Below are positions 11,576 to 29,660 of a stretch of 34,642 nt of DNA, in pieces. Both the position numbers and the translations under genes were made by a program. The DNA is from Saprospiraceae bacterium. GTDB taxonomy: Bacteria; Bacteroidota; Bacteroidia; Chitinophagales; Saprospiraceae. The stretch's first letter is position 1; the number at the start of each line of letters is the position of its first letter. The stretch lies in the NCBI GenBank assembly GCA_027488855.1, contig JAIYAV010000196.1, positions 1 to 34,642 of the forward strand, given 5' to 3'. A model generated the notes under the pieces. The model worked only from the letters and a program-made list of their open reading frames with translations, was not told where the DNA came from and did no database searches.

Positions 11576-11680
11576 CTGAGGTGTTTCTTAGGTGCCTTCG
11601 GTTTCTTAGGTGGTGAAAATATGCTTTGCTTGGTTTTTTTTACCACCTAAGAAACCTGAGGCACTGAAGAAACACCTTAG
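11576..11680. repeat. CTTAGG/CCTAAG palindromic element, copy 1
   Basis: This is a 105-bp element with arms of about 39 bases. The left arm reads from CTGAGGTGTTTCTTAGGTGC to TTTCTTAGGTGGT, and the right arm from ACCACCTAAGAAACC to GAAACACCTTAG; only a few positions mismatch. The loop holds ATGCTTTG and a run of eight Ts. It begins 10 bases after the GH13 stop codon and ends 27 bases before the RidA-like start. A second full copy lies at 19846-19944 after glmM, and a half copy at 28997-29025. Confidence 0.8.
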
Positions 11681-11707
11681 AAAAAGTGTATTTTGCACAG
11701 AAAAAAC

Positions 11708-12259
11708 ATGCGCAATCTTCACCTCTTTTCTCTCCTTTTTTGTTTCCTGATCACAGGAATTACGGTACAGGCTCAGAATAAAAAGCCAACAAAAGGCCAA
11801 GCCAGTATTGATCAAAAATTAACGGAACTGGGGATTGTTCTTCCCTCCGTTTCCGCTCCAATTGCAAACTACGTCAACGCTGTCCAAACCGGGAAACTCA
11901 TCTTTTTGGCTGGCAAAGGCCCCCGCAAGGAAGACGGCACCTACATTATGGGCAAAGTAGGCATTGACTTGACGATTGAGCAAGGCTACGAGGCTGCACA
12001 ACTCACTGCCATTCACCAATTGGCTGCGCTAAAGGCAGAAATTGGCAGCCTGGATCGAGTCAAACGGATTGTAAAAGTATTGGGTATGGTCAATTGTGGA
12101 CCTGATTTTGGAGATCAACCCAAAGTCATCAATGGATTTTCTGACTTAATGGTCAAAGTATTTGGCGAGAAAGGCAAACATGCCAGGTCGGCGGTGGGCG
12201 TAAGTTCGTTGCCCAATAGGATGGCCGTGGAGGTGGAAATGATCGTCGAAATCTGGTAG
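11708..12259 (+). CDS. exported RidA/YjgF/L-PSP family protein
   Basis: RidA-family proteins hydrolyse reactive enamine/imine intermediates or have other trimeric ligand-binding roles. This member differs from cytosolic RidA in carrying a signal peptide (MRNLHLFSLLFCFLITGITVQAQ). The start at 11708 was chosen over an in-frame ATG 15 bases upstream because it gives the more compact signal. The length is 183 aa. The core has FLAGKGPRKEDGTYIMGKVG and the family signature HARSAVGVSSLPNRMAVEVE near the C-terminus, with the conserved Arg that binds the substrate carboxylate (R in HARSAV). It resembles the longer YjgF-like subgroup of about 150-160 aa rather than the 128-aa RidA. Its periplasmic substrate is unknown. 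It stands alone, just after the first CTTAGG palindrome. Confidence 0.85.
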   Translation: MRNLHLFSLLFCFLITGITVQAQNKKPTKGQASIDQKLTELGIVLPSVSAPIANYVNAVQTGKLIFLAGKGPRKEDGTYIMGKVGIDLTIEQGYEAAQLTAIHQLAALKAEIGSLDRVKRIVKVLGMVNCGPDFGDQPKVINGFSDLMVKVFGEKGKHARSAVGVSSLPNRMAVEVEMIVEIW

Positions 12260-12367
12260 GGGCAACCCTCGCGGGTGCCCCTGTCCATGTGATAATCGCA
12301 AAGGTGGGGCACCCCTCGCGGGTGCCCCGTTTTATGTGATAAGCAGGGCGCCCACGAAGGGGCGCCC
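12259..12367. repeat. three tandem GC-rich hairpins between convergent genes
   Basis: Three hairpins follow one another: GGGGCAaCCC-tcgc-GGGTGCCCC (12259-12281), GGGGCACCCcTCGCGGGTGCCCC (12306-12328, then GTTTT), and GGGCGCCC-acgaag-GGGCGCCC (12346-12367). The spacers share ATGTGATAA (12288-12296 and 12333-12341), so the unit of about 46 bases is itself repeated. The first hairpin includes the last base of the RidA-like stop codon, and the third ends 6 bases before the stop of the convergent esterase-like gene. A bidirectional terminator function is plausible. The array is much GC-richer than its surroundings. Confidence 0.75.
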
Positions 12368-12373
12368 ATACGA

Positions 12374-13975
12374 TTATTTCAATATCAATTTCTTCGCCAC
12401 AAGCCCCTTATCAAAGCGAACCTGCAGCACATATGTCCCCGGAGGTATACTCCCCCGTTGCAACTCAAAATCATTTTCGTCCACATTCGCATAACCACGC
12501 ACCATGCGGCCATCCAAGCTATACAGGGCGATGTCGCGCATTTTAAACTCGGTGGCACTCTCCAGATATATCCGGTCGGCAACCGGGTTTGGCCCGATTT
12601 TCAATTTCACTACATCTTCCGAGATGATTTCCTGGGTAGAAGTAGCCAGATTGAGTTGGAGATAAGCACGAGGTATGAACACTTGCATCATGGTATCGAT
12701 GTAAGCCATAGCTTTGGCTTTGCTCATATTCGGGTTGGTCAACAAACCATTGGTGTGCAATACCTTCCAGTCATCTTTACGTCCGGTTGCCGCATTGAAA
12801 CCAGCTACGACCAATTTCAACGTAGTTGTATCCCACCATTCCCATGGGCCCGCTTCAAAACGGTTGCCTGGAGTCACGAAAGGATACATGTTGTCCGCAG
12901 AAAGTGTAGTCGCCTGACCGCCGATGTTGGTGTTGGGGCCATTGGGTATTGGGACATTTTTAAGTACCTGGTTTTTCAAGTTGACGAAAGATTGCTCAGT
13001 ATTGGCTGGAGCTAACTTTGTGTTCAAACCGGTGGTATTGGCTTTCTGCACGATTGAACGGGTACCGGATACACTCACCACGAATTCGCGGGTAGTAGGT
13101 ACAATTACCGCTCCATCGGCAAATGGTGCAAATGGGTCGGACAATACGTGGAAACCGATCATGGCAGGTTCTCCTGCTTTGCCTTCCAGCCAGCTGGCAT
13201 CTCCCAACGCTCCACCCATGTTTACCGCCAATTGGAAACTAGAGCTGTAAGTTGGATTGTTAAGCAGGTTCAGCGGCTTGGCTGTTGAACCAAATGGATT
13301 GCTACTCAATGCCGTATCAACATAGGCGGTCAACGTCTCAGTATTGATGAACTTGGGAATTTCAATTTCTTCTTTGAAACGATCCAGATAAGCTGCACCC
13401 ATGCTGATGTAACCACCAGTACCCTGGCCCCACAACACCATCCGATTTGGGTCGATACCATATGGGTTATTGTCCACTGCAACTGTTTTGCGCAAGAAAC
13501 GAATGCAACTCCGCGCATCCTGAACCCCACGGTAAGCTGCACCCAGCAAGGTACCTGTACGCGTGTTTTGTCCAGCAGGCCCCGTAGCAGCTGGGTTCCA
13601 GCCCAAACGGTAAGTAGGAACAAATACGACATAGCCCAAACGAGTGAAGCGACGTGCAAATTCTACGACCGAAGAATCACTGCGTGCTCCGGTAATGCCA
13701 CCATTGATGATGGGAGGAAGAAAGCTGCCAGTATGGAAGTACATCACTGCAGCACGATTGGTGGCATTGTCGCCAGCTGGAGTATACACATCCATCACCA
13801 GGTCCTGAGCAGCAGGAGCACCTGTCAAAACGGATATATTTCTGGCATACACCACGTTTCTTTGAACCGAAAAACTGCTGAACACATCCGTGCGATATCT
13901 ACCAGGTTGGGCAGATAAACCTATTGTTCCCAGCATCGTAATCAACAACAGCAGCAAAGTGTTGAGTTGTTTCAT
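12374..13975 (-). CDS. T9SS-exported alpha/beta-hydrolase (carboxylesterase-like), nucleophile Ser replaced
   Basis: The start at 13975 (MKQLNTLLLLLITMLG...LSAQ) gives a clean signal peptide and 533 aa; an in-frame ATG 18 codons upstream does not. The fold resembles hormone-sensitive-lipase or carboxylesterase-type hydrolases: LVMDVYTPAG, an oxyanion-hole-like YFHTGSF where the family has HGGG, then RGVQDARSCIRFLR and DPNRMVLWGQGTGGYIS. The nucleophile elbow, normally GxSxG, reads G183-Q-G185-T-G-G, so the Ser position is Gly. The C-terminal 75 residues (KIGPNPVADRIYLES to LVAKKLILK) are a type A T9SS sorting domain. The gene lies 94 bases downstream of a TonB-dependent receptor on the same strand with no promoter box between, so co-transcription is likely. 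It may be a binding protein rather than an esterase. Confidence 0.82.
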   Translation of the reverse strand: MKQLNTLLLLLITMLGTIGLSAQPGRYRTDVFSSFSVQRNVVYARNISVLTGAPAAQDLVMDVYTPAGDNATNRAAVMYFHTGSFLPPIINGGITGARSDSSVVEFARRFTRLGYVVFVPTYRLGWNPAATGPAGQNTRTGTLLGAAYRGVQDARSCIRFLRKTVAVDNNPYGIDPNRMVLWGQGTGGYISMGAAYLDRFKEEIEIPKFINTETLTAYVDTALSSNPFGSTAKPLNLLNNPTYSSSFQLAVNMGGALGDASWLEGKAGEPAMIGFHVLSDPFAPFADGAVIVPTTREFVVSVSGTRSIVQKANTTGLNTKLAPANTEQSFVNLKNQVLKNVPIPNGPNTNIGGQATTLSADNMYPFVTPGNRFEAGPWEWWDTTTLKLVVAGFNAATGRKDDWKVLHTNGLLTNPNMSKAKAMAYIDTMMQVFIPRAYLQLNLATSTQEIISEDVVKLKIGPNPVADRIYLESATEFKMRDIALYSLDGRMVRGYANVDENDFELQRGSIPPGTYVLQVRFDKGLVAKKLILK

Positions 13976-14069
13976 TTGAAATTGTTTTGAATGAATTAAG
14001 ATGAAATGACCATGAGCAAATTCAAGCATGCATCCACCCTTGTGGATTTACGATTGAAGTTACTCTATT

Positions 14070-16904
14070 TTATTTTTTGTTCCAATCGTATAGGAGCGAC
14101 AAGTAAGCCAAACGACCAATTCTAGGCCCTCCATAAGTTTGGAACGTCAAATTGTTCAAGATGTTCGATGCGCCCAATTTAAAGGTGGTGTTGATCTTTT
14201 TGACATGCCAGTTCATTTGGGCGTCGAGCATGCTGTAACTTGGAATGATACCCGTAAACTGGGGGGAACCTTCGAATATAAATCCATCAATCCACTTGTA
14301 ATTGATGTTGAAGCCAAAATCGGGAAAATTCATGCCAAGGAATTTTACAGCCAAGTCCCGTCCCGAAAACCCTAAATTGTATTTGTGCTTTGGTGTATTG
14401 AACGCAGGAATGATGGGGTCATCGCTGACACTGTTTAGTTGATTGAAGGAGTAGTTGCCATTCAAGACATAGTTTTGACCAAAATAATAGCTGCTGCCTA
14501 TCGAAAACCCTTGGGTAGTCACCCGATCCCTGGCGTTTGCCGCCACTCGGTAAGCTTGTACCCGACTAGGCAATCCCGTCAATTGATCAAAAGCCGCATC
14601 TACCCCGATGTTGAAGCCAATGAAATCTTGATAAAAGCTATAATAGTAGGTTGCATCTACGTAAATTTTTTCAAAGAAGGTATTGCGGTATCCAGCTTCA
14701 ATGGTGCGTACTTGCTCAGGTCGAATGGGGGCTACATCGAAATAGCTCAACTTGGTCTGGTCCCTTGTGTTGAGGTATTCCCGTAGGGATTCGATGGTCA
14801 ATAAATCATTGAACCCATTCAAATTCCCGATGAGAATGGCGCGTCCTACGTTGTAAAAAAGGTATTGATCCGCCAGGGTAGGGTTGCGAATGGCTGAGGA
14901 AAAGGAAAAGCGCAAAACCTGATCACGGGTGGGCGTATACACCAGCGAGGCGGCAGGAGAGAGCAGGTAATTGAAATTCTGGTGTTTATCCAGACGGATC
15001 GAGCCACTGATTTTTAGCCTTTTGTCCAATTCCATGGTGCCACCACCATAGATGCCATACTCATAGGTGTTGATGTTGACATTGCCGGTGTCCAACAAGA
15101 GCGAACCCCTGGAGTTTGGCGTATACAGTCGGAAATTTGCACCAACCAAAAGATCCAGGTCGGTTATTGAACCACCCTTGTCGGGCTTAACGAGGTCGTT
15201 AAATTTGTACTCACCGTGGGTGTGATACAGGGCTGAACGGTCAAAAAAGCGAGTTCCCCCTTCGCTGTAGCCCAAACGGGAGGTGATGCTATTGAATTCC
15301 TGCTGAAAACGTGCCGTACCTGGCTCAAAAAAATCAACTGACTGAAACAAGGGATTGCCCTTCTCGACTTGCAGTTGCGCTAAAGAATGGTACAAAGCGA
15401 GGGAGTCCTGTACTCGGCTATTGCCTAAGAATGCATTTTGGACAGTTCGAAACTCATTCGGGCGGCCAATGTAGTCAATCGGATTGGGGTAACCCTCAAT
15501 TTTGCGTACCCTTGGATTGATGTTGGTTTGCCAAAAATTGATGTAGTCCGAAGCCCATCTGATGTCTTCCTTTGCGTTGTTTTGCAATTGCAAGGCAGTA
15601 AAATACGGATCGTAGGAATTCCCGGCATCTTCATGGGTTACATAAAAGCGAAGGAAATACTTCTCATTTTGCTTCAATTCAATTTTGTGTTGAAAGAACT
15701 GAATGTCTCGCAAGCTGTAGCGGTTGTCACCTTGATATACGGTGGTTCCGGTACTGTAGTTCGTGCCCAGTACCAACTCAGGTGAGTTAATATCTTTGGC
15801 CGGATTCAAGCGCAGGTGAAAAGCCGTTGCTGCTTTAAGGTTTTCAGAGTCATAATCGACCAGATCAACTTCTCGGTAACCTTTGCGGTGAATGATGCCC
15901 ATCCCGATCAGGTTGAAGTTGCCGGTAAAGTCGTTGGAAATCAGGTATTCGTCTCCATAAGTATTCACCGCATCATAACCACCAGGGTTGCTGGCTTTAC
16001 TGGGGGTATCAAAAACCGGATCGTAATTGTCGGCTACCCAGTCATTGGCACGGAAACCGGAAAGATTGAATTTATAAGCAAAAACATCTTTACCTGCTTT
16101 GTTTTTGACTGCATCCGCCCAACGTAAGCCTGCTTCAAACAAGCTTCTTTCCCCTCCTTTTACCACAGCTTCCAAACCCTTGTGCAAAAACGGATTTTTG
16201 GTTTGCATGCTCACCACACCGTTAAATGCATTGGGGCCATAAAAAGCCGAAGAAGCACCTACAATCAGGGTTACTCCATTTACGTCCAACTCTGAAGCAC
16301 CCAAAAAGTTGCCCAGGGAAAAGTTCAAACCCGGTGATTGGTTGTCTACGCCATCGATGATTTGTAGCGAACGCACCGGACTGGTACTGTTGAACCCCCG
16401 GGTATTGATGATTTTGAAGCCCAAACTGGCTGCGGTAAGGTCTACATCTTTTAAGGAACCCAAGCCATCGTAAAAGTTGGCCGCGGGTGTTTCCGTGATC
16501 GCGATGGCGTCCATGGTTTCCATGGTCAAGGGGGATTGCACTTTCTTTTCAGAGATGCGCCTCCCTTTAACTTCCACTTGATCAATCGTCACTGCATCCT
16601 CGCTCAATTCGATAACCAGTTTGGGTTGGACACTGTTGAGTATGACTTCCTTATCGGTATAGCCTACATACGAAATGACCAGGGTAAGGGGAAATTTTTG
16701 AGCCGTGGAGAGTTCAAATTTCCCTTCCAAATCAGCCACTGTCCCCTCGGTAGTCCCTTTAATTACTACTGTCGCATTGGTCAGGCCCTCTTTATTTGCC
16801 GCATCTTTTATTTCTCCCCGTATGGTCGTTTGAGCATAAATGATGCATGAACAAGAGAAAATCAAAATGATGCTAAGCATCAATGACTTGTATAGATATT
16901 TCAT
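14070..16904 (-). CDS. TonB-dependent outer-membrane receptor with carboxypeptidase-regulatory-like domain
   Basis: The protein is a 944-aa outer-membrane transporter driven by TonB. A signal peptide (ending IIYAQ, residue 25) is followed by a CarboxypepD_reg-like domain (TIRGEIKDAANKEGLTNATV; about 26-105), then the plug (VQSPLTMETMDAIAITETP to VVSMQTKNPF; about 120-235) and a 22-strand-type barrel ending YLSLLYDWNKK. No SusD homologue is next to it, so it is not a SusC in the strict sense. The substrate cannot be told from the sequence. It is the first gene of a probable two-gene operon with the downstream T9SS hydrolase-like gene. The 197-base upstream gap (16905-17101) carries a near-consensus TAATTTGC box on the minus strand near 16950. 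Confidence 0.93.
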   Translation of the reverse strand: MKYLYKSLMLSIILIFSCSCIIYAQTTIRGEIKDAANKEGLTNATVVIKGTTEGTVADLEGKFELSTAQKFPLTLVISYVGYTDKEVILNSVQPKLVIELSEDAVTIDQVEVKGRRISEKKVQSPLTMETMDAIAITETPAANFYDGLGSLKDVDLTAASLGFKIINTRGFNSTSPVRSLQIIDGVDNQSPGLNFSLGNFLGASELDVNGVTLIVGASSAFYGPNAFNGVVSMQTKNPFLHKGLEAVVKGGERSLFEAGLRWADAVKNKAGKDVFAYKFNLSGFRANDWVADNYDPVFDTPSKASNPGGYDAVNTYGDEYLISNDFTGNFNLIGMGIIHRKGYREVDLVDYDSENLKAATAFHLRLNPAKDINSPELVLGTNYSTGTTVYQGDNRYSLRDIQFFQHKIELKQNEKYFLRFYVTHEDAGNSYDPYFTALQLQNNAKEDIRWASDYINFWQTNINPRVRKIEGYPNPIDYIGRPNEFRTVQNAFLGNSRVQDSLALYHSLAQLQVEKGNPLFQSVDFFEPGTARFQQEFNSITSRLGYSEGGTRFFDRSALYHTHGEYKFNDLVKPDKGGSITDLDLLVGANFRLYTPNSRGSLLLDTGNVNINTYEYGIYGGGTMELDKRLKISGSIRLDKHQNFNYLLSPAASLVYTPTRDQVLRFSFSSAIRNPTLADQYLFYNVGRAILIGNLNGFNDLLTIESLREYLNTRDQTKLSYFDVAPIRPEQVRTIEAGYRNTFFEKIYVDATYYYSFYQDFIGFNIGVDAAFDQLTGLPSRVQAYRVAANARDRVTTQGFSIGSSYYFGQNYVLNGNYSFNQLNSVSDDPIIPAFNTPKHKYNLGFSGRDLAVKFLGMNFPDFGFNINYKWIDGFIFEGSPQFTGIIPSYSMLDAQMNWHVKKINTTFKLGASNILNNLTFQTYGGPRIGRLAYLSLLYDWNKK

Positions 16905-17101
16905 GCTGAAAACCGAAATAGTGAGCGAATAAAATTCTTAATGGGGGCAAATTAGTGAAAATTCGCTAACAAATGAATCTTTGTAAACCGAATTTTATCC
17001 AATTGTAAGGTTAAGTACCATTTTTTATTCGGAACATTCCACATGTCAAGAAATTAATTTGTGTATGCTACTTATAAAAAAGAGATTTCCAAAATAATTG
17101 A

Positions 17102-17842
17102 CTAGTGGAAATGAATGGCGGATAAAGCGAAACCCAATAAAAGAGCCAACCATTTGCCCCAGGAAAAATGATGACTCGTATGGGCGTCGTTTTCAAAAAG
17201 GATCGTCGAGCCAATTTGTAACAAGTTACCGGTGACAATCGACAGCAAAATGTGCAACACCTTGGGATCCTGAAAAAAGAATTGTGCAAAAAATGCAGCC
17301 AATGGTGACATCCCTGCAAAAACTAGTAGCAGTAATGCCGTAGAAATTTTTTTGATTCCACTCATCAACAAAAAAGAAGTGAGCGCAAAAGCTGCCGGGA
17401 TGTTGTGGACGGTGATGCTCATCAAGAGGTGATAAAATTGATCGTTACCATTTTTTTCGGCAAAAGACTCAATGAAAGCCCGGTAGCCTCCCAAGGGCAA
17501 TCCTTCAATCAAGGCATGTAAACACAAACCCAGCATAATTGAAAAGGCCAACCAACCAGTTTTTTTTTCATGCGTATGCACATGGCCGTGTTCAACGCCT
17601 CCCGACCACTCTTCCAGCAACAGTTGAATGGCAAAACCAAGCAACATCCACAGGCCGGTGTAGTGATCTCCTTTGGCAAACAAATCAGGCAAGAGCTGCA
17701 CCAGAACTACCCCCAGTATAAATGCACCATTGAACAACATGACGAAGCGCACCAATTTAGGCTTTCGATCGCCTAAATAAAATGCGGGTATGCCTCCGAT
17801 AAAGGGGGTTAGAAAAAGGAGTAGGTATTCCCAAATGTGCAT
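17102..17842 (-). CDS. ZIP family metal transporter
   Basis: This is a predicted inner-membrane importer of Zn2+ or other divalent metal, 246 aa with about eight hydrophobic segments. The transport-site helices are visible: TM4-like LCLHALIEGLPLGG and TM5-like TVHNIPAAFALTSF. Canonical ZIPs have HNxP(D/E)G and HNIPEGxA; here the first motif lacks Asn-Pro and the second lacks the Glu, so the metal site is a divergent version. A His-rich cytoplasmic loop (EHGHVHTHEK) precedes TM4, as usual for the family. It overlaps nothing but starts only 5 bases after the stop of the PAP2 phosphatase gene, so the two are an operon transcribed from the promoter near 18456. Confidence 0.85.
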   Translation of the reverse strand: MHIWEYLLLFLTPFIGGIPAFYLGDRKPKLVRFVMLFNGAFILGVVLVQLLPDLFAKGDHYTGLWMLLGFAIQLLLEEWSGGVEHGHVHTHEKKTGWLAFSIMLGLCLHALIEGLPLGGYRAFIESFAEKNGNDQFYHLLMSITVHNIPAAFALTSFLLMSGIKKISTALLLLVFAGMSPLAAFFAQFFFQDPKVLHILLSIVTGNLLQIGSTILFENDAHTSHHFSWGKWLALLLGFALSAIHFH

Positions 17843-17847
17843 TCGTG

Positions 17848-18426: not shown

Positions 18427-18444
18427 GCTGTAGAATTAAAATGA

Positions 18445-18452
18445 TAATTTTG
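18445..18452 (+). promoter_or_regulatory. -7 box of glmM (Bacteroidota TAnnTTTG)
   Basis: TAATTTTG fits the Bacteroidota sigma-A -7 consensus TAnnTTTG exactly. A TTG lies 24 bases upstream, slightly long for a -33 box. Transcription would begin near 18459, giving a leader of about 15 bases. The box lies next to the oppositely oriented one at 18456-18463. Confidence 0.5.
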
Positions 18453-18455
18453 CCC

Positions 18456-18463
18456 CAAATCTA
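18456..18463 (-). promoter_or_regulatory. -7 box of the PAP2-ZIP operon
   Basis: The minus strand reads TAGATTTG, an exact TAnnTTTG match, with TTG 21 bases upstream (minus strand, 18485-18487), the expected spacing to a -33 box. That upstream part lies inside the first codons of glmM, so the two divergent promoters overlap the facing genes. Confidence 0.5.
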
Positions 18464-18473
18464 ATCTAAACCA

Positions 18474-19853
18474 ATGGCATTAATCAAGTCTATTTCCGGA
18501 ATTCGTGGCACCATCGGCGGTGTGCCCGGCCAAAACCTGACCCCACAAGACATTGTAGAATGTACCGCCGCTTTTGGTACCTGGTTGCTGCAAAAAGGCA
18601 ATACGCCCAAAGTGGTGATTGGTCGCGATGCCCGCATTTCAGGGCAAATGGTACGGGATTTGGTAGTCAGTACGCTTACCGCACTGGGCATTGATGTGAT
18701 CGATCTGGGCTTGTCCACTACCCCTACCGTAGAAATGGCGGTGGGTTTTGAAGGTGCCGGAGCGGGCATCATCATCACTGCCAGTCACAATCCCAAAGAG
18801 TGGAATGCCCTGAAATTCCTGAATGAAAAAGGGGAGTTCATCTCTGCGGCCGATGGCGCTGCGGTTTTAGACTTGATTTCCAATGGTGGCATTCAATACC
18901 AGTCTGTTGATGCCTTAGGCAAAGTGTTAGAAGGCGGCGACTTTTTGCAAAAACACATCCAAGCCATCATCGACCTGCCCGAAGTCGAAGTGGATTTGGT
19001 GCGGGCGCGGGGTTTTAAAGTTGTACTTGACCCCGTCAACTCATCCGGGGCGATCACCGTTCCCGATTTATTGGAATACCTGGGCTGCGATGTCATCATC
19101 ATTAATGGTGAAACCAATGGCCAGTTTGCTCACAACCCGGAACCATTGCCCGAACATTTGCGGGATTTGTCAGCTGCCATCCTGGAACATCGCGCCGATT
19201 TGGGTATTGCCGTCGACCCGGATGTGGACCGCTTGGCGCTGGTTTGTGAAAATGGCGAAGCTTTTGGCGAAGAATATACCCTGGTGGCCGTGGCTGACTA
19301 TATGTTGCAACACAGCCCCGGGAATACCGTCTCCAACCTTTCTTCTTCCCGTGCGCTGCGTGATGTCACACTCAAACATGGCGGCCAGTACTTTGCGGCG
19401 GCGGTAGGTGAAGTGAATGTGGTGGAAAAAATGAAAGCGGTCAATGCCAGAATTGGTGGGGAAGGCAATGGGGGCATCATCGTACCTGAATTGCATTATG
19501 GTCGTGATGCGCTGGTAGGTATCGCGCTGTTTTTATCCTGGTTGGCCAAATTTGGGGGCAGCACTTCCGCCCTGCGAGCTACTTACCCGGATTATCAAAT
19601 GGTGAAAGACAAAATTTCGCTGCCTGAAGGGCTGGATATGGAAGCCATCTTGCGCCAATTGGAGGAAAAATACCAGCACGAGGAGCACAGTACCATTGAT
19701 GGACTAAAAATTGATTTCCCCCAAAGTTGGTTGCACTTGCGCAAGTCGAATACGGAGCCGATCATTCGGATTTATGCGGAGGCGCCGAGTTTGGCGGAGG
19801 CGGAGGCTTTGGTCGGGAAGATTAAAGCAGAGGTGTTGTCGCTGATTGCTTAG
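18474..19853 (+). CDS. glmM: phosphoglucosamine mutase (phosphohexomutase family)
   Basis: This enzyme is predicted to convert glucosamine-6-phosphate to glucosamine-1-phosphate for UDP-GlcNAc, peptidoglycan and lipid A synthesis. It has 459 aa. The phosphoserine loop TASHNPKEWNALKF carries the catalytic S104, the metal-binding loop is DPDVDRLALV (about 247-256), the sugar-specificity loop GEGNGGIIVPELHYGRDA is near 333, and the phosphate-binding loop RKSNTEPIIRIY is near 425. GEGNGG matches the glucosamine type rather than the GEESGG of phosphoglucomutases. No partner gene is next to it. Its stop codon TAG is formed inside the left arm of the second CTTAGG palindrome. Confidence 0.9.
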   Translation: MALIKSISGIRGTIGGVPGQNLTPQDIVECTAAFGTWLLQKGNTPKVVIGRDARISGQMVRDLVVSTLTALGIDVIDLGLSTTPTVEMAVGFEGAGAGIIITASHNPKEWNALKFLNEKGEFISAADGAAVLDLISNGGIQYQSVDALGKVLEGGDFLQKHIQAIIDLPEVEVDLVRARGFKVVLDPVNSSGAITVPDLLEYLGCDVIIINGETNGQFAHNPEPLPEHLRDLSAAILEHRADLGIAVDPDVDRLALVCENGEAFGEEYTLVAVADYMLQHSPGNTVSNLSSSRALRDVTLKHGGQYFAAAVGEVNVVEKMKAVNARIGGEGNGGIIVPELHYGRDALVGIALFLSWLAKFGGSTSALRATYPDYQMVKDKISLPEGLDMEAILRQLEEKYQHEEHSTIDGLKIDFPQSWLHLRKSNTEPIIRIYAEAPSLAEAEALVGKIKAEVLSLIA

Positions 19854-19944
19854 GTGCCTCTTCGGTGCCTTAGGTTTCTTAGGTGGTAAAAAACATGCTT
19901 TCACCACCTAAGAAACCTAAGGTACTAAAGACACACCTAAGCAA
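19846..19944. repeat. CTTAGG/CCTAAG palindromic element, copy 2
   Basis: This is a 99-bp element. The outer arms TTGCTTAGGTG (19846-19856) and CACCTAAGCAA (19934-19944) are perfect, and the inner arms CCTTAGGTTTCTTAGGTGGT and ACCACCTAAGAAACCTAAGG are perfect over 20 bases. The loop includes ATGCTTTC, close to the loop of copy 1. The glmM stop codon lies within the left arm. A short T-run (TTTTCTTG) follows. The gap 19945-20022 holds nothing else I can name. Confidence 0.8.
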
Positions 19945-20022
19945 TTTTCTTGTGCAGATCAAAATGCAGATACCCCTCTTCCGCTCCAGTCTAAATTCTG
20001 TAGCTCAATTATAACAAAACGC

Positions 20023-20592
20023 TTAACCCTGCTCTTTTTTCAATTGCTCGTACACGGCGGGCACCCGATGGTAACCATTGCTGGTAATACGTTCACCCAG
20101 TTTTTGGTAGAATGCCCCTTCACTGGGCGTCACACTGGCCAAACCATCGACGTACTTGTTGTACAAGCAGAACAATGCGGCAATCAGCACCGTGTCGTGG
20201 ATTTCCCGATCAGTGGCACCCGCGTTTTTCGCACGGTCAATTGCAGTTGAAGTGACGTTTTTCCCATTTTGTTGGGCTAGTGCGGCAATGGCCAATAAGG
20301 CTTTCATTTTTTCGCCCAGTTCCGCCTGTTCAAAATCGTCAATGACCTGAGCGCAGGTTTGGGTTTCACCCAGCAGGATATTGGCCGCAGCGGTATGTGC
20401 GGCGGTGCAAAAGCGGCATTGGTTGCGTGAAGATACCAGGGTGGCGATCAATTCACGTTCGGCTTCGCTGAGGGTGGATTCGCCTCGCAACAAAATTTGG
20501 GTGAGTTCACGGATGGGCGCCGCCGTATCCTGGCGGTACTCCAACAAACCCGTAATGCCCGGCAAATGGGCCTCTAAGGGAATATGTGGCAT
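20023..20592 (-). CDS. AhpD-like/carboxymuconolactone decarboxylase family protein (peroxidase-related)
   Basis: This is a 189-aa all-helical protein with the AhpD redox motif RNQCRFCTAAH: C59, C62 and H66, fitting the CxxC-x3-H pattern, with the conserved upstream Glu (SEAERELIA) also present. Relatives reduce peroxides or act as thiol-disulfide adaptor proteins; some are annotated as uncharacterised peroxidase-related enzymes. No signal peptide is present, so it is cytoplasmic. Its start at 20592 is the only ATG that keeps the N-terminal HIPLEAHLPGI segment usual in this family. It is a single gene, convergent with glmM and divergent from the permease gene. Confidence 0.87.
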   Translation of the reverse strand: MPHIPLEAHLPGITGLLEYRQDTAAPIRELTQILLRGESTLSEAERELIATLVSSRNQCRFCTAAHTAAANILLGETQTCAQVIDDFEQAELGEKMKALLAIAALAQQNGKNVTSTAIDRAKNAGATDREIHDTVLIAALFCLYNKYVDGLASVTPSEGAFYQKLGERITSNGYHRVPAVYEQLKKEQG

Positions 20593-20627
20593 TGAATGAG
20601 TTTGAACAAGTTAAAAAACAGAAAATC

Positions 20628-20659: not shown

Positions 20660-20840
20660 TCCGCAATGGTGACATGGCGATTAATCGTGTCATCGTGACG
20701 AAAATAGAAAAAAAATTGTATTTGCACTCTTTTTACCGAATTGACCTTTTTGTAAAGCGGAGATTAATTTTTGCACAAATCTGAGCAGGAATAACTGAGT
20801 TCAATCTGAATTGTGCATTTTGTGCTTCAAATTCCCTGCA

Positions 20841-22647: not shown

Positions 22648-22713
22648 AAAATATTAAAGATTTTTCCACCACCTATTTTTTAACCCTTAAACCATAAACT
22701 TTTCAACTTTTTC

Positions 22714-25125
22714 CTACCGAAACAAGCTCACTTCGCCTTGCACCAATTGATTTCCCGGCCCTCTGTCGTCAATGTATTCAATCCTGAACCAATACCGGTA
22801 CACGCCTTGTTGGGCGATTTGTCCACGAATGGAGCCATCCCAGCCGGTATTGAGGTCGACGGAGCGAAATACCCGCCCGCCCCAGCGGTCGTATACTTGC
22901 AACTCATAACTTTTCACTTGTACGAATTCATTGACGTACGGGCGAAAAGCCTCATTGGCATTGTTGCCATTGGGTGAAAAGGCGTTGGGGGTAAATGCGT
23001 TAAACAATACACATTGCTGGAAAGTCAATTCCATTGAATCGATGCTGGAACAGCCGTCTTTGGAGGCTTCGACCCAATAGGTACCCGGTATTGTAGTACT
23101 AAATGAAGTTTTGGTGCTCCCATCAGGCCAAAGCAGTTGTAGGCCCTTACTTGAAATTGCATGCAATAGGTAGGGTTTATCGTCACACACCGTTGTATCC
23201 TTGCCCAGAGACACCACCGGTAAAACAGGACATGCCGTGACTGCGATGCTATCCCGAGCACTGCAGCCCCCATCATTGACTTCGACCCAAAAGGTGCCGG
23301 ATGTGCGGACGAGTAGGGTGGGAGCTGAGCTGTTGTCGCTCCACAAATAATTTCGGCTACCCGTTTTGGAGGCATCCAATAGCAAAGACTCGGTGCCACT
23401 GATGATGGTGTCGCGCCCCAGATTGAGGGCGGCGGCGCTGATCATGCGTACCATTGTTGAATCTGCTACACTGCAGCCAGAGAGTTCTACCACAACTTTG
23501 TGTATGCCCGCTTGAGCAACCACGATTTGTGCATTGCTGGAGCCATCATGCCAGCGGTAGGTTGCGCCAATCAGCTTGAGGTCGGCGTTGAGCGACAAAT
23601 TTTGGTTGGCGCAAAGTGTAGTATCATTGATCAGCGCGAGTTTAAATTCGTCGAGGGATAAGACCTTGACAGTATCGTACAACACACAGCCAACCCGATA
23701 AGTTACGGCCACATGGTGGGTGCCAGCCTGACTAACCAGCAGAGTGGCTTGGATACTGCTGTCGCTCCAGAGGTATTTTTCGTTGAAGTTGAAGGTGTGG
23801 GCATCAAGGGTGATGGATTCGGGGTTGCACAAGACCATATCTTTACCTAAAACGCCTGCATCAATATAATCTATCGAGGATTTAAATACCCAGGTTTCAT
23901 TGCTATTCTTGAGGTTGGTACTGTTGCCACCCGCTAAAAACTGGGTTGATCCTACACCGCTTTGATCGCGCATTTGAACAAAATCAGCCCGGATTACGCC
24001 ACCATTCATTTGTACAACGGACTTACGCCCGGGGAGCGTGGAGCGCAGTTCAATGGAATCACAGGGATTGCCTACCAACTGGAAGTACTCATTAATGGTT
24101 TGAGCATGAGCAGCATCTAAATCATAACTTTTACCTGCTGTGAAGACGAGGGAATCGATCACATTTTCACCCAGAATAATCCCACTGTTGCGCATTTCAA
24201 GTCGATTGAAGGTACTGACTTTGGGGATTTTGTCGCCAGCTGCTTCATAATCGCTCAGGAGGGAAGCCGTGCCTTCTGGATTAGAGAACAAAACATTGTG
24301 AAATTTGACATCAGCATACGCGATATAAGTGGGCGTTGTATTCGTAAATTCCAATAGTGAAGTACCCGCATCAACAGTCGCTTTTGGCCCAATGAAAAAA
24401 GAGTAAAGCGAGGAGGGTAAAGAGCCATTCCTGGTGATGCGCCAGTGGCTATTGCCCATTTTAAGGCTTGTAGAATCTTCGTTTAACATAAAAAATGTTT
24501 CCGTTGTAACGGGGTTGCCGTTGGAGTTGAATTCACCGGCACGTAGGTACAAATTCGTAGCGCTTAAGGTATCTAGTAAAATCCAAGAGCCTGTACCATT
24601 CAAGTGGGCATTGTAGATGTGGTATCCACGGGTGAGTAAGGTTTGATTTTGATCAGGCGATAGCAACCTCAATTCGGAGATTCCTCCCACTTTATTTTCA
24701 GGTAGCTCAACCGACCCGTAGGCGTTCAAAATCCACATGTCAAAGTTGATGGGATTGTTGGTCACCCCGGTCCAACTCATGTTTTTACAATACGCTTGAT
24801 GGTCTCTGCTGATTACTTTTTGGTAAGGGCCATCAAAGGAGTTGGCATCAAAAAAAACATTGTCCATGGCGGTGGGAATAGATTCTCCGCCTGTTCCACC
24901 ACTGGCTGCAGCCCAATTGGCAGGGTCGTACCAACTGCCCGTGCCGCCTTTTCCCACCCAATAGAGATCGCGTCCACCCAGTTTATTGATGGTTCGCCGC
25001 TGGAGGTTCTGATAGAAGCTAGTATTCGACCTGTTTCCATTGTCGTCTACCGAGTAATAATCAGTGGCTTTCGCCACCTGGCCGATCAACAGGATGATTG
25101 TTGATAAAAGTAGGGGTTTAAACAT
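22714..25125 (-). CDS. large secreted protein with gliding-motility-associated C-terminal (T9SS type B) domain
   Basis: The protein has 803 aa. A signal peptide (residues 1-20, ending VAKA) is followed by DLYWVGKGGTGSWYDPANWA, the start of the beta-helix-like region common in Bacteroidota surface proteins. Residues about 420-710 hold four tandem Ig/PKD-like units of about 70-85 residues. Each has a W-D/S-D-x-S turn (LWSDSS, RWHDGS, LWSDNS, LWPDGS) and ends with a G-C-x(3-5)-D-S/T stretch. The last 95 residues (NAFSPNGNNANEAF to QGEVSLFR) form the gliding-associated/CHU_C type sorting domain, which directs type IX export and surface release or attachment. No catalytic motif is seen, so an adhesin-like role is the best guess. 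It is a single gene; its 164-base leader has an inverted repeat (GAACCC at 25145, GGGTTC at 25167). Confidence 0.85.
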   Translation of the reverse strand: MFKPLLLSTIILLIGQVAKATDYYSVDDNGNRSNTSFYQNLQRRTINKLGGRDLYWVGKGGTGSWYDPANWAAASGGTGGESIPTAMDNVFFDANSFDGPYQKVISRDHQAYCKNMSWTGVTNNPINFDMWILNAYGSVELPENKVGGISELRLLSPDQNQTLLTRGYHIYNAHLNGTGSWILLDTLSATNLYLRAGEFNSNGNPVTTETFFMLNEDSTSLKMGNSHWRITRNGSLPSSLYSFFIGPKATVDAGTSLLEFTNTTPTYIAYADVKFHNVLFSNPEGTASLLSDYEAAGDKIPKVSTFNRLEMRNSGIILGENVIDSLVFTAGKSYDLDAAHAQTINEYFQLVGNPCDSIELRSTLPGRKSVVQMNGGVIRADFVQMRDQSGVGSTQFLAGGNSTNLKNSNETWVFKSSIDYIDAGVLGKDMVLCNPESITLDAHTFNFNEKYLWSDSSIQATLLVSQAGTHHVAVTYRVGCVLYDTVKVLSLDEFKLALINDTTLCANQNLSLNADLKLIGATYRWHDGSSNAQIVVAQAGIHKVVVELSGCSVADSTMVRMISAAALNLGRDTIISGTESLLLDASKTGSRNYLWSDNSSAPTLLVRTSGTFWVEVNDGGCSARDSIAVTACPVLPVVSLGKDTTVCDDKPYLLHAISSKGLQLLWPDGSTKTSFSTTIPGTYWVEASKDGCSSIDSMELTFQQCVLFNAFTPNAFSPNGNNANEAFRPYVNEFVQVKSYELQVYDRWGGRVFRSVDLNTGWDGSIRGQIAQQGVYRYWFRIEYIDDRGPGNQLVQGEVSLFR

Positions 25126-25289
25126 GGGTTACACGCTTTGTGGTGAACCCGGAGTTGTGGATCATTGGGTTCATCGTTGTTTGACAAACCCCTTCGAACT
25201 TGTTTTGCTCTGCTTAGTGTGAGTTCAATTTAGGAAAATTCTTCAACTATTCAAAAGAATGCGGTATGTTTTTAATCCTTTTGGTTCTA

Positions 25290-25670
25290 TTAGAGGTTTT
25301 TCCGCAAACCATCTACACTAATTCGATGGTGCGAGGTATGAAAAGTGACCTCACCATCTTTGACCAACAATACCTGTGGAGATTGGTGGGTAACCTGAAA
25401 ATCTTGCGCAATGCGATTGGAAATCGGGCGATGCTTGAGCAAATCCAGGTAATAAAAATCCAGTTCATGCCCCTCAAAATCCCAGTTTTCCATCAGGTTA
25501 TATTTGGCCCCTTCACTAATTCCGCACGTGGTGCTGTGTTTAAAAATTACTACAGGTTTGTCTTTGGAGGTGGCCAAAATTTCATCCAATTGTGCTTCGT
25601 CATGCAGCACTTTCCAAGCGTCGAAATTTAAGCCTTGTTGCGCCAGTTTTATATTTTCTAAGTAGCTCAT
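25290..25670 (-). CDS. ytxJ: YtxJ-family bacillithiol-linked thioredoxin-like protein
   Basis: The protein has 126 aa and a thioredoxin-like fold. The active-site region is FKHSTTCGIS with a single Cys at C49, where Bacillus YtxJ has a TCPIS-type site (monothiol bacilliredoxin). The ELDFYYLDLLKHRPISNRIA and THQSPQVLLVKDGEVTFHTSH segments, including the cis-Pro loop (SPQ), are typical. It probably reduces bacillithiol-mixed disulfides in the cytoplasm. The Gly in place of Pro after the Cys is a minor variation. It lies between the gliding-associated gene and the divergent nuclease gene with no operon partner. Confidence 0.88.
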   Translation of the reverse strand: MSYLENIKLAQQGLNFDAWKVLHDEAQLDEILATSKDKPVVIFKHSTTCGISEGAKYNLMENWDFEGHELDFYYLDLLKHRPISNRIAQDFQVTHQSPQVLLVKDGEVTFHTSHHRISVDGLRKNL

Positions 25671-25769
25671 CCTTGTTTTAATGGTTTAATGGCTCTGTTG
25701 TGCAAAAGAACCGTTGAATTGTGCAAAAAGTTTTCGCAGAATCCTGAAATTCATGGCAAAATAAGCAAC

Positions 25770-27017
25770 ATGAGAATCATCCTGTTATTCTTTTTACTCA
25801 GTTATAATTTTCTCGCAGGTCAAAACGTAGAAATACAACTTAAAAACCTGGAGACCAAACTAGAAAACCTGCGTCAGCAGCAAAAAGAGGTAGTTCTGGC
25901 CATCGAAGACCTGAAAATGCAAAAGGTGATGGTCGATTTGCAGCCCATGTTGCCAGCTTTGGGGGTAGGAGAGGAGGTGGTGAGTCATTCGCTGATGGCA
26001 CTGGTTTATGCAGAGGCCTACGAACAGGCCCGTTGGGTAGGGCACATCATCACCCCGGATGTGGTGAATGGGGTAGTGGGCCGCACCAACGATTTTCGAC
26101 CCGACCCCAAAATCAAAACGGGTTCGGCGGTGGAACAGGATTATTTTCTCAAAGTACTGCAGCCCGACAGCGCTTATGTGTACGATGGTTTTGGCTATGA
26201 TCGGGGACACTTGGCGCCTTCCGCAGATTTTCGTTGGTCCGAAAAAGCGCTTTCCGAATCATACTTCTACTCCAACATGTCGCCCCAACTGGCCGAGTTC
26301 AACCGAGGCATTTGGGCAGATTTGGAGAGTTTGTTGCGGGCCTATTTGTTTCGCAATACCACCACACAGTTGTTCGTGTTCACGGGGCCAGTGTTGAAAC
26401 CAGGTTTGCCCACCATTCCTCGCGCCAAAAACAAGGTAGCCATCCCAGAGCAGTATTGGAAAATCGCGCTGGACTTCAAAAACCGCAAAGCCATTGCCTT
26501 TTTGGTACCCCAAAATACCAAAGGTTATCCGCTGACCAGTTTTGCTACATCCATTGATGAGATTGAAAAAGTGACCGGGATTGACTTTTTTGCTGGCCTG
26601 GACAACACTTTGGAGGAAACCTTGGAAAAACAAATCGACAAAAGTTCGTTTTTGACCACGATTGCCTCCGGTGATGTAGAGCCGCTCAGTGCGGTAACCC
26701 TACCTCCGGCACATTTCAACTCCGTACAAGCCCGCTTGTTCATGGGACGAAATGAAGAAATTAAAGTGTGTGGAAAAGTGGTCGGTGCCCGGGCCAGCCG
26801 CAAAGGTAACATCCTGCTCAACCTGGATCAGCAATACCCCAATGAGCTGTTCACCATTTTTATCAACAAAGAGCAACTAGTCAATTTTTCTTACGACCCC
26901 CTCAGCAATTGGAAGGACAAATACATCGTGGTAAGGGGAAAGGTGAATAACCTGGGCAATGTGCCCGTGATTTATGTGGAGAAAGAAAACCAGTTGAGCG
27001 AATTCCGGGAAAAATAA
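25770..27017 (+). CDS. secreted DNA/RNA non-specific endonuclease with extra C-terminal domain
   Basis: The ATG at 25770 gives a clean signal peptide (MRIILLFFLLSYNFLAGQ) and 415 aa; upstream in-frame codons do not. Residues 20-55 form a coiled coil (LKNLETKLENLRQQQKEV). The Endonuclease_NS domain follows, with the catalytic DRGH (144-147, H147 the base) in YDRGHLAPSADF and the metal-binding Asn (N178) in YSNMSPQLAEFNRGIW. The final 100 residues contain KVCGKVVGARASRKGNILLNL and KYIVVRGKV, an OB-fold-like pattern not part of the nuclease core. The enzyme should degrade extracellular or periplasmic nucleic acid, perhaps for phosphate and nucleoside scavenging. No immunity gene is beside it. 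Confidence 0.88.
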   Translation: MRIILLFFLLSYNFLAGQNVEIQLKNLETKLENLRQQQKEVVLAIEDLKMQKVMVDLQPMLPALGVGEEVVSHSLMALVYAEAYEQARWVGHIITPDVVNGVVGRTNDFRPDPKIKTGSAVEQDYFLKVLQPDSAYVYDGFGYDRGHLAPSADFRWSEKALSESYFYSNMSPQLAEFNRGIWADLESLLRAYLFRNTTTQLFVFTGPVLKPGLPTIPRAKNKVAIPEQYWKIALDFKNRKAIAFLVPQNTKGYPLTSFATSIDEIEKVTGIDFFAGLDNTLEETLEKQIDKSSFLTTIASGDVEPLSAVTLPPAHFNSVQARLFMGRNEEIKVCGKVVGARASRKGNILLNLDQQYPNELFTIFINKEQLVNFSYDPLSNWKDKYIVVRGKVNNLGNVPVIYVEKENQLSEFREK

Positions 27018-27032
27018 TTTTGCATTTTTTTC

Positions 27033-27111
27033 AGCGCCTAAAATGAAAACCCCAAAAAATATTTGACTTAATCTATTGAATTTTAATTTTTTAACAACAA
27101 TTATTGGCGCT
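27033..27111. repeat. inverted AGCGCC/GGCGCT pair 3' of the nuclease gene
   Basis: AGCGCC (27033-27038) and GGCGCT (27106-27111) could pair around a 67-base, strongly AT-rich loop, and eight Ts follow (27111-27118). It may be a weak terminator of the nuclease mRNA. Inside the loop is TTGACTTAATC, which looks like a -35/-33-type box. Confidence 0.3.
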
Positions 27112-27163
27112 TTTTTTTCAAAAAACACTGGAACGAGTACAAGACATCAGCTTAAAACGCCCC

Positions 27164-27171
27164 TATCTTTG
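27164..27171 (+). promoter_or_regulatory. -7 box (TATCTTTG) of a probable small RNA
   Basis: TATCTTTG is an exact match to the Bacteroidota -7 consensus TAnnTTTG. Transcription would begin around 27178, about 55 bases before the end of the intrinsic terminator hairpin. No convincing -33 TTG lies at the usual distance. Confidence 0.45.
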
Positions 27172-27177
27172 TAGTGC

Positions 27178-27240
27178 AAAGACTGATTACCGGGCTAGAT
27201 TAGTAGTTCAGAAGGCTGCCAAGCGCAGCCTTTCTTTTTT
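27178..27240 (+). ncRNA. candidate small non-coding RNA between promoter box and terminator
   Basis: The segment runs from a TAnnTTTG box to a strong intrinsic terminator in about 60 bases and holds no plausible reading frame with a ribosome site. It could be an independent small RNA or a prematurely ended leader. The distance of about 180 bases to the next gene, which has its own promoter box at 27391, favours an independent RNA. No known RNA family is recognised. Confidence 0.4.
27212..27240 (+). terminator. rho-independent terminator
   Basis: AAGGCTGC-caagc-GCAGCCTT is an 8-bp perfect stem with a 5-base loop (27212-27232), followed by TTTCTTTTTTG. It is the clearest intrinsic terminator on the plus strand in the window, yet no protein gene ends in front of it within 190 bases. 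Confidence 0.75.
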
Positions 27241-27390
27241 GACCAAAGTTACATCGAAATATATCAGGCAGCCACTTTTCTGGATGGGAAAGTGGCTGTT
27301 GTGTTTAGGGTATTTGGAGTCTAGATAAAGTACGCTCCATTTTGAACTCGCCTATAGAGCTGCCATAGCTGTTAGGTACAATTTTTTCCC

Positions 27391-27398
27391 TACCTTTG
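27391..27398 (+). promoter_or_regulatory. -7 box (TACCTTTG) of the ATPase-nuclease gene
   Basis: TACCTTTG matches TAnnTTTG exactly and ends 21 bases before the ATG at 27420, giving a very short leader of about 15 bases. A TTAG about 20 bases upstream may act as a poor -33 box. Confidence 0.5.
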
Positions 27399-27419
27399 TA
27401 ACAAAATTAATCACTCCAC

Positions 27420-28937
27420 ATGCGTATATTCAATACCTCTGGGCCGAATATCCCTGCCAAGCACTATACCTTGTTGCGTGAAGCACTGGTGGAGCAGGGC
27501 ATCCAGATGGTACGAGATGAACGTTATTTCACCATTTGGGCACCGCGCCAGACGGGGAAGAGTACCTATTTTTTGCTCCTCAAAGCAGCCTTGGAAAAAC
27601 AAGGATATGCAGTTGTCAAGATCAATGTGGAGGATTTGATCAACGCATCGCTGGAGACCTTGGTTGCTCGGTTGGAGCAGGAGTTTCGAACCATTGGCAT
27701 CGCCTTAAGCCCCATTGATAGCCTGGGCGATTTGACCAACTTCATCACCAATTTATCCCTTGAAAAATTGGTGCTCATTGTAGATGAAATTGAAGGGCTC
27801 AATCCAGCACTATTGGGGCAATTTTTACACGCCATCCGTAGTCTGTACCACAGTCGCGATCAAAACCCACTCAAAAGCGCCATCTTGGTTGGCGTGAGCA
27901 ACATTGTGGGAGTTATGGAAGACAATGCCAGTCCTTTCAACATCGCTGATACGCTCAATATCCCCTATTTCACGGATGCAGAAACCGGTCAACTCCTCCA
28001 GCAGCACGAGTTGGAGAGTGGGCAAGTTTTTGCCCCTAAAGTAATTGAAGAAATCCGACGCATCACCGCCAATCAACCAGGCTTGGTCAATGGTTTTGCA
28101 CAACAACTGGTGGCCCGCAACCCCGGTAAATCCACGATCAGCTACGAAGATTACCTCCGGGTAGAAGATTGGTACCTGAACGAGGCCATCGATAAAAACT
28201 TTGCCAACATCCTGAAGCAGGCCAAAAAGCATCGGACTTTTTTGGAAAAATTGCTGTTTCGCGAAATCGAAGTCTCTTTTGAGATAGACCGTGAGACGAT
28301 CAAAGCCCTGCATGTCAACGGCCTCATTCGTCGGAATGCTGCTGGGATGGTGGAATTTTGGGTGCCTTTTTACAAAAAGCGGCTTCAAAAAGCCTTTTAC
28401 CCTTATACCAACGGTGAAAAAGACGAGCTGAGCAGTAGTTTGTATGCCCCAGAATTTTTTACTCAAGCGGGCAAATTGGCAATTGACAAACTCATTGACG
28501 CGTACAAGGCTTACGTCAAAAGAAGAGGTTTTTCCGTGTTCCGCGAAAAGGATGAAGCGGGTAATTATACCTCCATCAAAGAAGCCGGGCTCATTTACAG
28601 TTTTGAAACATTCATCGCAGCTTTTTTGCTACAAGCCCAGGGCAAAAGTTACCGGGAAGCGAATACGGGCCTGGGAAAAAGTGATTTGATCCTCAACATC
28701 CAGGGGGAAGAAATTTTATTTGAAAGCAAAAAGTACTATGGTTTTGCCCAGTTTGAGGCGGGCAAAAAACAACTGGCGTATTATGCCGAAAGCCTGGCAC
28801 TTCAGGAGGCAGTGTATTTGGTTTTTGCGCCCAATCACCTGCGGTATCCGGCGCTGGTACACGAGGGGGAAGAAGAAATTCGCGGGGTACACATCACTAC
28901 TTTTTTGATCGATTACGACGAAGAGAAGGATTTTTGA
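27420..28937 (+). CDS. AAA-type ATPase fused to PD-(D/E)XK nuclease domain
   Basis: The protein has 505 aa. The N-terminal ATPase half carries Walker A APRQTGKST (41-49, Ala in place of the first Gly but G46-K47-S48 kept) and Walker B LVLIVDEIEGL near 112-122. After a helical winged-helix-like middle (about 190-330) comes a C-terminal nuclease-like domain with GKSDLILN (D422) and ILFESKKY (E435-x-K437), the D-x13-ExK spacing of PD-(D/E)XK enzymes. This architecture resembles the AAA-ATPase-like/DUF1703 group, which is greatly expanded in Bacteroidota and whose function is unknown; defence or selfish-element roles have been suggested. It is a single gene with its own promoter box and a strong terminator. 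No toxin, methylase or other system partner is adjacent. Confidence 0.85.
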   Translation: MRIFNTSGPNIPAKHYTLLREALVEQGIQMVRDERYFTIWAPRQTGKSTYFLLLKAALEKQGYAVVKINVEDLINASLETLVARLEQEFRTIGIALSPIDSLGDLTNFITNLSLEKLVLIVDEIEGLNPALLGQFLHAIRSLYHSRDQNPLKSAILVGVSNIVGVMEDNASPFNIADTLNIPYFTDAETGQLLQQHELESGQVFAPKVIEEIRRITANQPGLVNGFAQQLVARNPGKSTISYEDYLRVEDWYLNEAIDKNFANILKQAKKHRTFLEKLLFREIEVSFEIDRETIKALHVNGLIRRNAAGMVEFWVPFYKKRLQKAFYPYTNGEKDELSSSLYAPEFFTQAGKLAIDKLIDAYKAYVKRRGFSVFREKDEAGNYTSIKEAGLIYSFETFIAAFLLQAQGKSYREANTGLGKSDLILNIQGEEILFESKKYYGFAQFEAGKKQLAYYAESLALQEAVYLVFAPNHLRYPALVHEGEEEIRGVHITTFLIDYDEEKDF

Positions 28938-28966
28938 GCGGTGGGGAAGGATAGAGTAAGTCCAGT

Positions 28967-28995
28967 GCCCTGCTGCCGCAGGGCTTGGTTTTTTT
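28967..28995 (+). terminator. rho-independent terminator of the ATPase-nuclease gene
   Basis: GCCCTGC-tgcc-GCAGGGC (28967-28984) followed by TTGGTTTTTTT; it lies 30 bases past the stop codon. Confidence 0.8.
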
Positions 28996-28996
28996 G

Positions 28997-29025
28997 AACC
29001 ACCTAAGACATCTAAGGGCATCTTA
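28997..29025. repeat. half copy of the CTTAGG/CCTAAG element
   Basis: ACCACCTAAGACATCTAAGG followed by GCATCTTAGG resembles the right arm of the complete elements at 11576-11680 and 19846-19944 (ACCACCTAAGAAACCTAAGG), with decayed positions and no matching left arm. It follows the terminator, so it again lies at a gene end. Confidence 0.55.
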
Positions 29026-29070
29026 GGGGTCCGTTGGCCTAAGTCTTCTTCCATTCACCAGCGATGGATA

Positions 29071-29625: not shown

Positions 29626-29660
29626 TTACGTGTCAATCCCATCCACTGACCCTCTTTTAA

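Follow-up and report, generated by a model that had tools for sequence, protein, structure and literature searches.

What are the long CTTAGG/CCTAAG palindromes that lie behind genes in a sewage bacterium of the Saprospiraceae, and how do their arms stay paired when their sequences differ? The question is raised by a stretch of 34,642 nucleotides (nt) (the window; contig JAIYAV010000196.1 of assembly GCA_027488855.1, positions 1 to 34,642 of the forward strand), whose source belongs to the same genus as Haliscomenobacter hydrossis. The initial annotation had described two full palindromes and a half copy directly 3' of genes and left the choice between a mobile family that targets gene ends and a conserved 3'-end structure. 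We compared the window genome (G000; the window is its contig C323) with two sister species (G001 and G004), H. hydrossis (G002) and a fourth congener (G003); the assemblies of G000 (8.37 Mb), G001 and G004 are draft quality, with 422, 1020 and 510 contigs, respectively. The new observation is that, when sister species are compared at a shared site, the loop of the palindrome is often found inverted, with the outer arms unmoved. With a probability of roughly 0.6, we infer a genus-level family of gene-end palindromes that would serve as bidirectional 3'-end structures and may be maintained by polymerase template switching between the arms.

Both full palindromes lie in the window where the initial annotation had placed them. 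An inverted-repeat search found element 1 with a left arm of CTTAGG-type units at 11576-11619 and a right arm at 11637-11680 (plus strand, 86% complementary) around a loop centre at 11620-11636, and element 2 with arms at 19845-19891 and 19899-19945 (plus strand, 87%) around a loop centre at 19892-19898. As RNA, the two fold at -67.8 and -56.9 kcal/mol, respectively (z about -12; 0 of 200 shuffles equally stable). The notion of a genome-wide family held up well. In G000, the ACCACCTAAGAAACCTAAGG core 20-mer is matched 68 times in forward and 66 times in reverse orientation with up to 2 mismatches, compared with 0 and 0 at the same tolerance for the pattern read backwards, and 60 places around core matches plus the window yielded 64 paired copies. 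Each copy has two arms of about 41 paired positions, built of degenerate CTTAGGTG-like words of 9-11 nt, and a site-specific loop of 14-50 nt; the arm consensus reads CTnAGGTG-ATT-CTTAAGTG-CCTTAGG-TTT-CTTAGG-TGGT. Phasing of the units within the arms, already remarked on in the first description, is general: the best internal lag is 9 nt for 49 of the 64 copies, and in 32 of 64 it reaches significance on its own. Loops are more diverse: a CCTGC/GCAGG-like mini-hairpin occurs in 34 of 64, a second type (TCA...TGA) in 9 of 64, and 11 of 64 are 20 nt or shorter. The ATGCTTT motif had been taken as a shared loop sequence; it is present in both window copies and in no other of the 64 loops, which rules it out as a family trait.

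The family comprises at least about 70 copies in G000, at least as many in each sister species and about 20 in H. hydrossis. A covariance model, with which a copy usually counts on both strands, gave at least 147 strand-matches in G000, at least 149 in G001, at least 150 in G004, 37 in G002 and none in G003; among 19 other genomes it found three matches in G006, two in G013 and none in the rest. A DNA query matched 4 of the 5 genomes of the genus and 0 of 35 outside it, and in a sample of 395 genomes spread evenly over the phylum, matches were confined to G000 and two single-hit genomes. Plasmid records contributed one match, partial, on an H. hydrossis plasmid. In the viral collection, one contig (L407) carries a lone half-unit but no paired copies; the phage collection lay outside the search. 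We found no account of the family among the top-ranked matches in open-licence papers.

Placement relative to genes, assessed with a simple codon-model gene caller, agrees with the gene-end position proposed at the outset. Among the 63 copies with two neighbors (one further copy lacks a neighbor), 43 lie between convergent genes, 20 in tandem gaps and none between divergent genes, as opposed to 18, 89 and 57 of 164 control gaps of at least 100 bp without a copy (p 4e-17 for convergent and 3e-10 for divergent). A wider set of 197 unique copies comprises 115 convergent, 73 tandem and 4 divergent cases (of 192), with 5 at contig edges. Over 107 gene ends, copies lie a median of 10 nt from the stop codon, a stop lies within 30 nt for 58 of 64 copies, and 17 of the 20 tandem copies are nearer to the upstream stop than to the next start (2 reverse, 1 tie). 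In 102 of 128 arms, the outer 28 nt contain stop codons in at least two frames, compared with 89 of 269 control post-stop stretches without a copy. Eleven gene ends have a stop codon that overlaps the approximate edge of the element by 1-9 nt. One of them is the gene that the initial annotation named glmM and that Pfam assigns to the phosphohexomutases; its stop codon TAG (19851-19853) is indeed formed within the left arm of element 2. At L098 (3930-4024), both stops of G000 lie inside the element, and H. hydrossis lacks the element and has convergent genes that run into each other.

Matched sites reveal what happens to the loops. We grouped 210 unique copies into 50 clusters with matching flanks (78-98.5% identity), giving 77 pairs, from which one pair within G000 was dropped (L065, 4029 and 8735, two copies whose nearly identical flanks mark a duplication within the genome); 76 interspecies pairs at 49 sites remained. 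At a strict threshold, reached by 0.8% of random pairs each way, 13 pairs are inverted, 20 have the same orientation and 43 are unclear. Counted by site, 10 are inverted, 16 are in the same orientation only and 23 are unclear, and at a loose threshold the number of inverted sites rises to 15. The loose pair counts (22 inverted, 32 same and 23 unclear of 77) were set aside in favor of the strict ones because random pairs reach that threshold in about 27% of cases. Near-exact loops number 7 inverted and 8 same (the L065 pair included); perfect reverse complements extend over 34 nt at L094/L309 and 36 nt at L147/L443, and several cases are exact over 34-37 nt. Inverted loops are 14-39 nt long, and the outer arms stay in place. 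Element 1 is itself an instance: its outer arms are collinear in G000, G001 and G004, and the G004 loop is approximately the reverse complement of the G000 loop, being inverted relative to both other species at the strict threshold. Element 2 follows the same pattern in G004 over a wider 15-nt loop, at the loose threshold only. Differences between the arms are swapped in 3 of 3 inverted pairs, as against 0 of 2 pairs of the same orientation, where both are direct, these being few cases.

The arms, in turn, vary together. In an alignment of 52 copies with 41 paired columns, 88.9% of cells are paired, and 102 cells change on both sides with pairing kept (mean in shuffles, 61.8), a score reached by 0 of 500 shuffles. 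Slid controls gave at most 33 such changes, a comparison in which the consensus-derived structure favors the true alignment over the slid ones. The outer linkers of the two arms (3 or 4 nt) are concordant in 41 copies, discordant in 7 and otherwise in 4 of the 52 (p 7e-5). In 73 pairs, a set that leaves out those whose arm words differ by type, the inner arms have 35 complementary double changes; double changes of any kind number 42, compared with 6.6 expected by independence, the pairs not being independent of each other.

Loop inversion and the excess of paired arm changes fit polymerase template switching between the arms, for which arm homogenization and spacer inversion are the described footprint in the available portions of two reports (PMC8604942; PMC8794818). 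The copies are retained close behind the stop codon, in most cases between convergent genes, where the transcript from either side would terminate in a hairpin of very high stability; it is placement that suggests this bidirectional role in the formation or protection of 3' ends. The palindrome may be kept at least partly at the DNA level, by a replicating polymerase that would switch template from one arm to the other. Such a switch would sometimes copy one arm onto the other, of which we see a partial footprint, and would sometimes reverse-complement the loop in place, of which the inverted loops are the footprint. The direction of the T-run in the loop is unrelated to gene direction; the flip is therefore probably neutral, and the hairpin at the gene end is probably what is kept. 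On this view, errors of copying would mend such hairpins as well as flip them. Continued pairing of the arms had earlier been ascribed to selection or recent spread. Recent spread is not supported, and template switching adds a third route that also covers the inverted loops.

Several observations weigh against this reading. All classifiable pairs come from the three fragmented assemblies of G000, G001 and G004, and the 4 pairs that include an H. hydrossis copy are all unclear as to loop orientation. Mean identity between the arms of a copy (0.83 and 0.85) is not above that of the same arm between species (0.85 and 0.85), and homogenization of the arms is partial. Moreover, sequence is conserved in the arms, and template switching by itself does not account for that.

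Among other explanations is mobility: the family has features in common with repetitive extragenic palindromes (REPs), bacterial interspersed mosaic elements (BIMEs) and REP doublets forming hairpins (REPINs). As far as the accessible text goes, these too are numerous extragenic palindromes, single or paired, with a gene-end bias, mostly between convergent or unidirectional genes (PMC3733652). The CTTAGG family shares with them its extragenic position and avoidance of divergent promoters, its half-units are found singly, in tandem and in both inverted orders, and G000 has 13 places with a Y1_Tnp domain. That a REP-associated tyrosine transposase (TnpA-REP, Y1) moved the copies to gene ends is nevertheless unlikely. 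The CACCTAAG words occur at 0 of the 13 Y1 loci, within flanks that extend at most about 1.5 kb and in some cases stop short at the end of a contig, and at one of these loci, L118, a longer 19-mer finds one match with 5 mismatches; a TnpA-REP origin, for which the initial annotation had proposed to look, was rejected accordingly. The arms, with 41 pairs, are at least about three times longer than REP stems, given as 5-13 bp in the source text available, and consist of repeated words. The consensus ends carry no GTAG or CGTC tag (the A1 consensus ends in CTnAGG/CCTnAG), and the loops are inverted between species. Copies are also common to the same sites in different species, whose flanks are about 6-15% apart and whose loops are site specific, which speaks against the recent spread once envisaged. 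Arm words differ by eye between G000 and its sisters at L069 and L074, and in H. hydrossis the element is missing at window site 1 and at L098 3930. Likewise, the related ATPase genes of G002:C4 and G004:C191 are not followed by the half copy seen in the window. Thus, copies have been gained, lost or replaced; the single clean empty site (L098 3930-4024 compared with G002) is too diverged to read a target-site duplication.

The loop could instead hold a directional intrinsic terminator, a GC mini-hairpin followed by a T-run, selected to end upstream transcription. Mini-hairpins in about half of the loops (34 of 64) and a terminator-like hairpin kept at the half copy speak for this explanation, which we hold to be improbable. 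The T-run ignores gene direction in tandem contexts (30 copies with the gene, 40 against and 3 ties among 73; p 0.28); what persists is therefore something other than a directional terminator. A small first sample hinted at a bias in '>>' contexts (6 with, 0 against and 1 tie; n = 7 with core) and at none in '<<' contexts (1 with, 3 against and 1 tie; n = 5); the larger sample, with no orientation bias, led us to discard the candidate. Loops also flip between species, and 11 of 64 are no longer than 20 nt. A dedicated site-specific invertase that switches something on or off would account for the inverted repeats, the frequency of inversion and a near-even orientation between species. We give it very little credence, though no search for invertase genes was made: inversions occur at 10 sites (strict threshold) with varying arms, and orientation is unrelated to gene direction. 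Assembly artefacts are a concern with short-read drafts of 422, 1020 and 510 contigs, in which perfect arms longer than the assembly word leave the loop orientation ambiguous. Nonetheless, at a middle threshold, 3 of 17 inverted pairs, element 1 included, have no perfect arm run of at least 21 nt in either species, 9 of 17 have none of at least 31 nt, and the median longer run is 30 in inverted pairs and 30.5 in 30 pairs of the same orientation. Since copies with short runs invert too and run lengths are alike, misassembly is unlikely to explain all inversions, and we rate it low as a general account. Finally, the conserved arm sequence could reflect an array of phased CTTAGG words bound by a DNA- or RNA-binding protein. 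Spacing of about 9-11 nt, invariant word cores and the same words at Pedobacter gene ends are compatible with this candidate; other long hairpins of G000 use quite different periodic words and the congener G003 has no match, and it seems to us a slim prospect. Gene-end palindromes maintained in part by template switching remain our preferred reading.

Known systems show parts of this behavior. In plastids, stem-loop 'flip-flop' inversions likewise involve hairpin loops, often near gene ends, that invert repeatedly among relatives; the cases in the consulted part of the literature are single sites, one with a 9-bp stem and a 5-bp loop (PMC6824564), whereas the CTTAGG family is a dispersed bacterial repeat whose arms form about 41 pairs and whose inverted loops measure 14-39 nt. 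At quasi-palindromes, template switching likewise gives arm homogenization and spacer inversion (PMC8604942, PMC8794818). There, the passages available to us report inverted spacers of 2-5 bp in yeast genes and rRNA loops mostly of 4 and up to 7-8 nt; here, whole loops of 14-39 nt are inverted at 10 (strict) to 15 (loose) sites. Miniature inverted-repeat transposable elements (MITEs) are also short, noncoding inverted repeats with gene-end copies, and differ from the CTTAGG palindromes, whose arms nearly abut.

Related words extend beyond the genus. An exact-pattern scan of GTDB returned at least 109 stretches; among those listed, 61 are from G004 or G001 (metagenome-assembled genomes [MAGs] JAIXOO and JAAFHQ), 39 from Pedobacter, 2 from one Flavobacteriaceae genome, 1 each from Nubsella, a Lewinella MAG and a Cytophagales MAG that belongs to the series of G001; the remaining 4, from Firmicutes, look like chance. 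With three loci from outside Pedobacter set aside, the 38 Pedobacter loci hold 47 half-unit clusters, of which 14 are convergent, 22 tandem and 1 divergent, with 10 at edges. Pedobacter half-units are often inside-out relative to the Haliscomenobacter genus and set in arrays (L227), and an array also occurs in Nubsella (L319). Within 61 G000 sources, we found 39 other long hairpins, one of them an inside-out CTTAGG copy; of the other 38, 18 have periodic arms of quite different words (each p <=0.05; with duplicates among them). Inspection by eye shows other word palindromes in H. hydrossis at CTTAGG gene ends of G000, namely, behind glmM and at the L084 site. The Pedobacter half-units and the 18 periodic-arm hairpins indicate that the CTTAGG family may be one of a wider class. 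Tentatively, and at less than even odds, CTTAGG could be the commonest 'dialect' of a general bacterial class of gene-end hairpins whose arms of short, phased words (7-11 nt) would be grown by slippage and then paired and flipped by template switching. Such palindromes would recur at the same gene ends with words that vary by species and are shared across Bacteroidota classes, and selection would act on having a hairpin rather than on its sequence.

Further repeats were seen around these hairpins. Inside-out copies with ACCACC ends facing outwards, as in Pedobacter, lie at L078 1-145, L097 4750-4838 and L099 7145-7225. Several long hairpins (L099, L103, L107, L109, L087 and L101) have in common all or part of a GGCTACCGC-AGCGACTTTGACAA-like inner core, but their outer arms consist of different repeated words. 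A GGCGCATCATT-like motif adjoins several CTTAGG elements (L063, L081, L084 and L173). In H. hydrossis (L392), an element of about 250 bp (by eye) with CTGTCAATTACCCACAAAACC ends sits inside a CTTAGG palindrome, and an end similar to that of the CTGTCAATTACCCACAAAACC element adjoins another CTTAGG copy at L135. L098 holds two other multicopy intergenic palindromic repeats, at 9424-9676 (mostly in G002 among the matches listed) and at 2660-2890 (in G001 and G004 among the matches listed).

In the window, element 1 begins 10 nt past the stop of a cyclomaltodextrinase/alpha-amylase-family gene (9724-11565, plus strand; PF00128, PF09087 and PF10438). Element 2 takes in the end of the phosphohexomutase gene (18474-19853, plus strand; PF02878, PF02879, PF02880 and PF00408) and is followed by a convergent carboxymuconolactone-decarboxylase-family gene (20023-20592, minus strand; PF02627). 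The half copy is present as a single B-type arm (TTTTTTGAACCACCTAAGACATCTAAGG...) at about 28990-29029 (plus strand), a right arm, downstream of an AAA-type ATPase gene (27420-28937, plus strand; PF14516); 'directly 3'', as first stated, is loose for an arm that begins about 50 nt past the stop. The expected place of its left arm is occupied by a terminator-like GC-rich hairpin and T-run (28967-28984, plus strand), and the region as RNA has a z of only -2.9 relative to shuffles. Upstream of the ATPase gene, which is 91% identical to a copy on a 92-kb G002 contig (C4), a 79-bp stretch (27161-27240) is 94% identical to a place in G003; other matches between G003 and the window are mostly at 65-76%. 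Elsewhere, a perfect 20-nt inverted repeat with 124 nt between its arms (3081-3244), downstream of a 188-amino-acid open reading frame, is possibly a small mobile element. Positions 3025-3055 and 29605-29635 hold 31-nt inverted copies of a TACAAGTCTGGA-type repeat, with similar text in L281 and L328, and two tandem copies of a 37-nt GGGGCA...TGCCCC hairpin follow a RidA-like gene (12259-12342), with similar ones in L073 and L108.

To conclude, the palindromes of this genus provide a natural record, over at least 10 sites, of bacterial hairpins whose whole loop has been inverted, and the record could serve to measure rates of template switching. They also carry a warning that compensatory changes in hairpin stems need not signal selection on RNA structure. 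Our findings suggest that close bacterial relatives can renew or replace their gene-end hairpins faster than the surrounding genes change.

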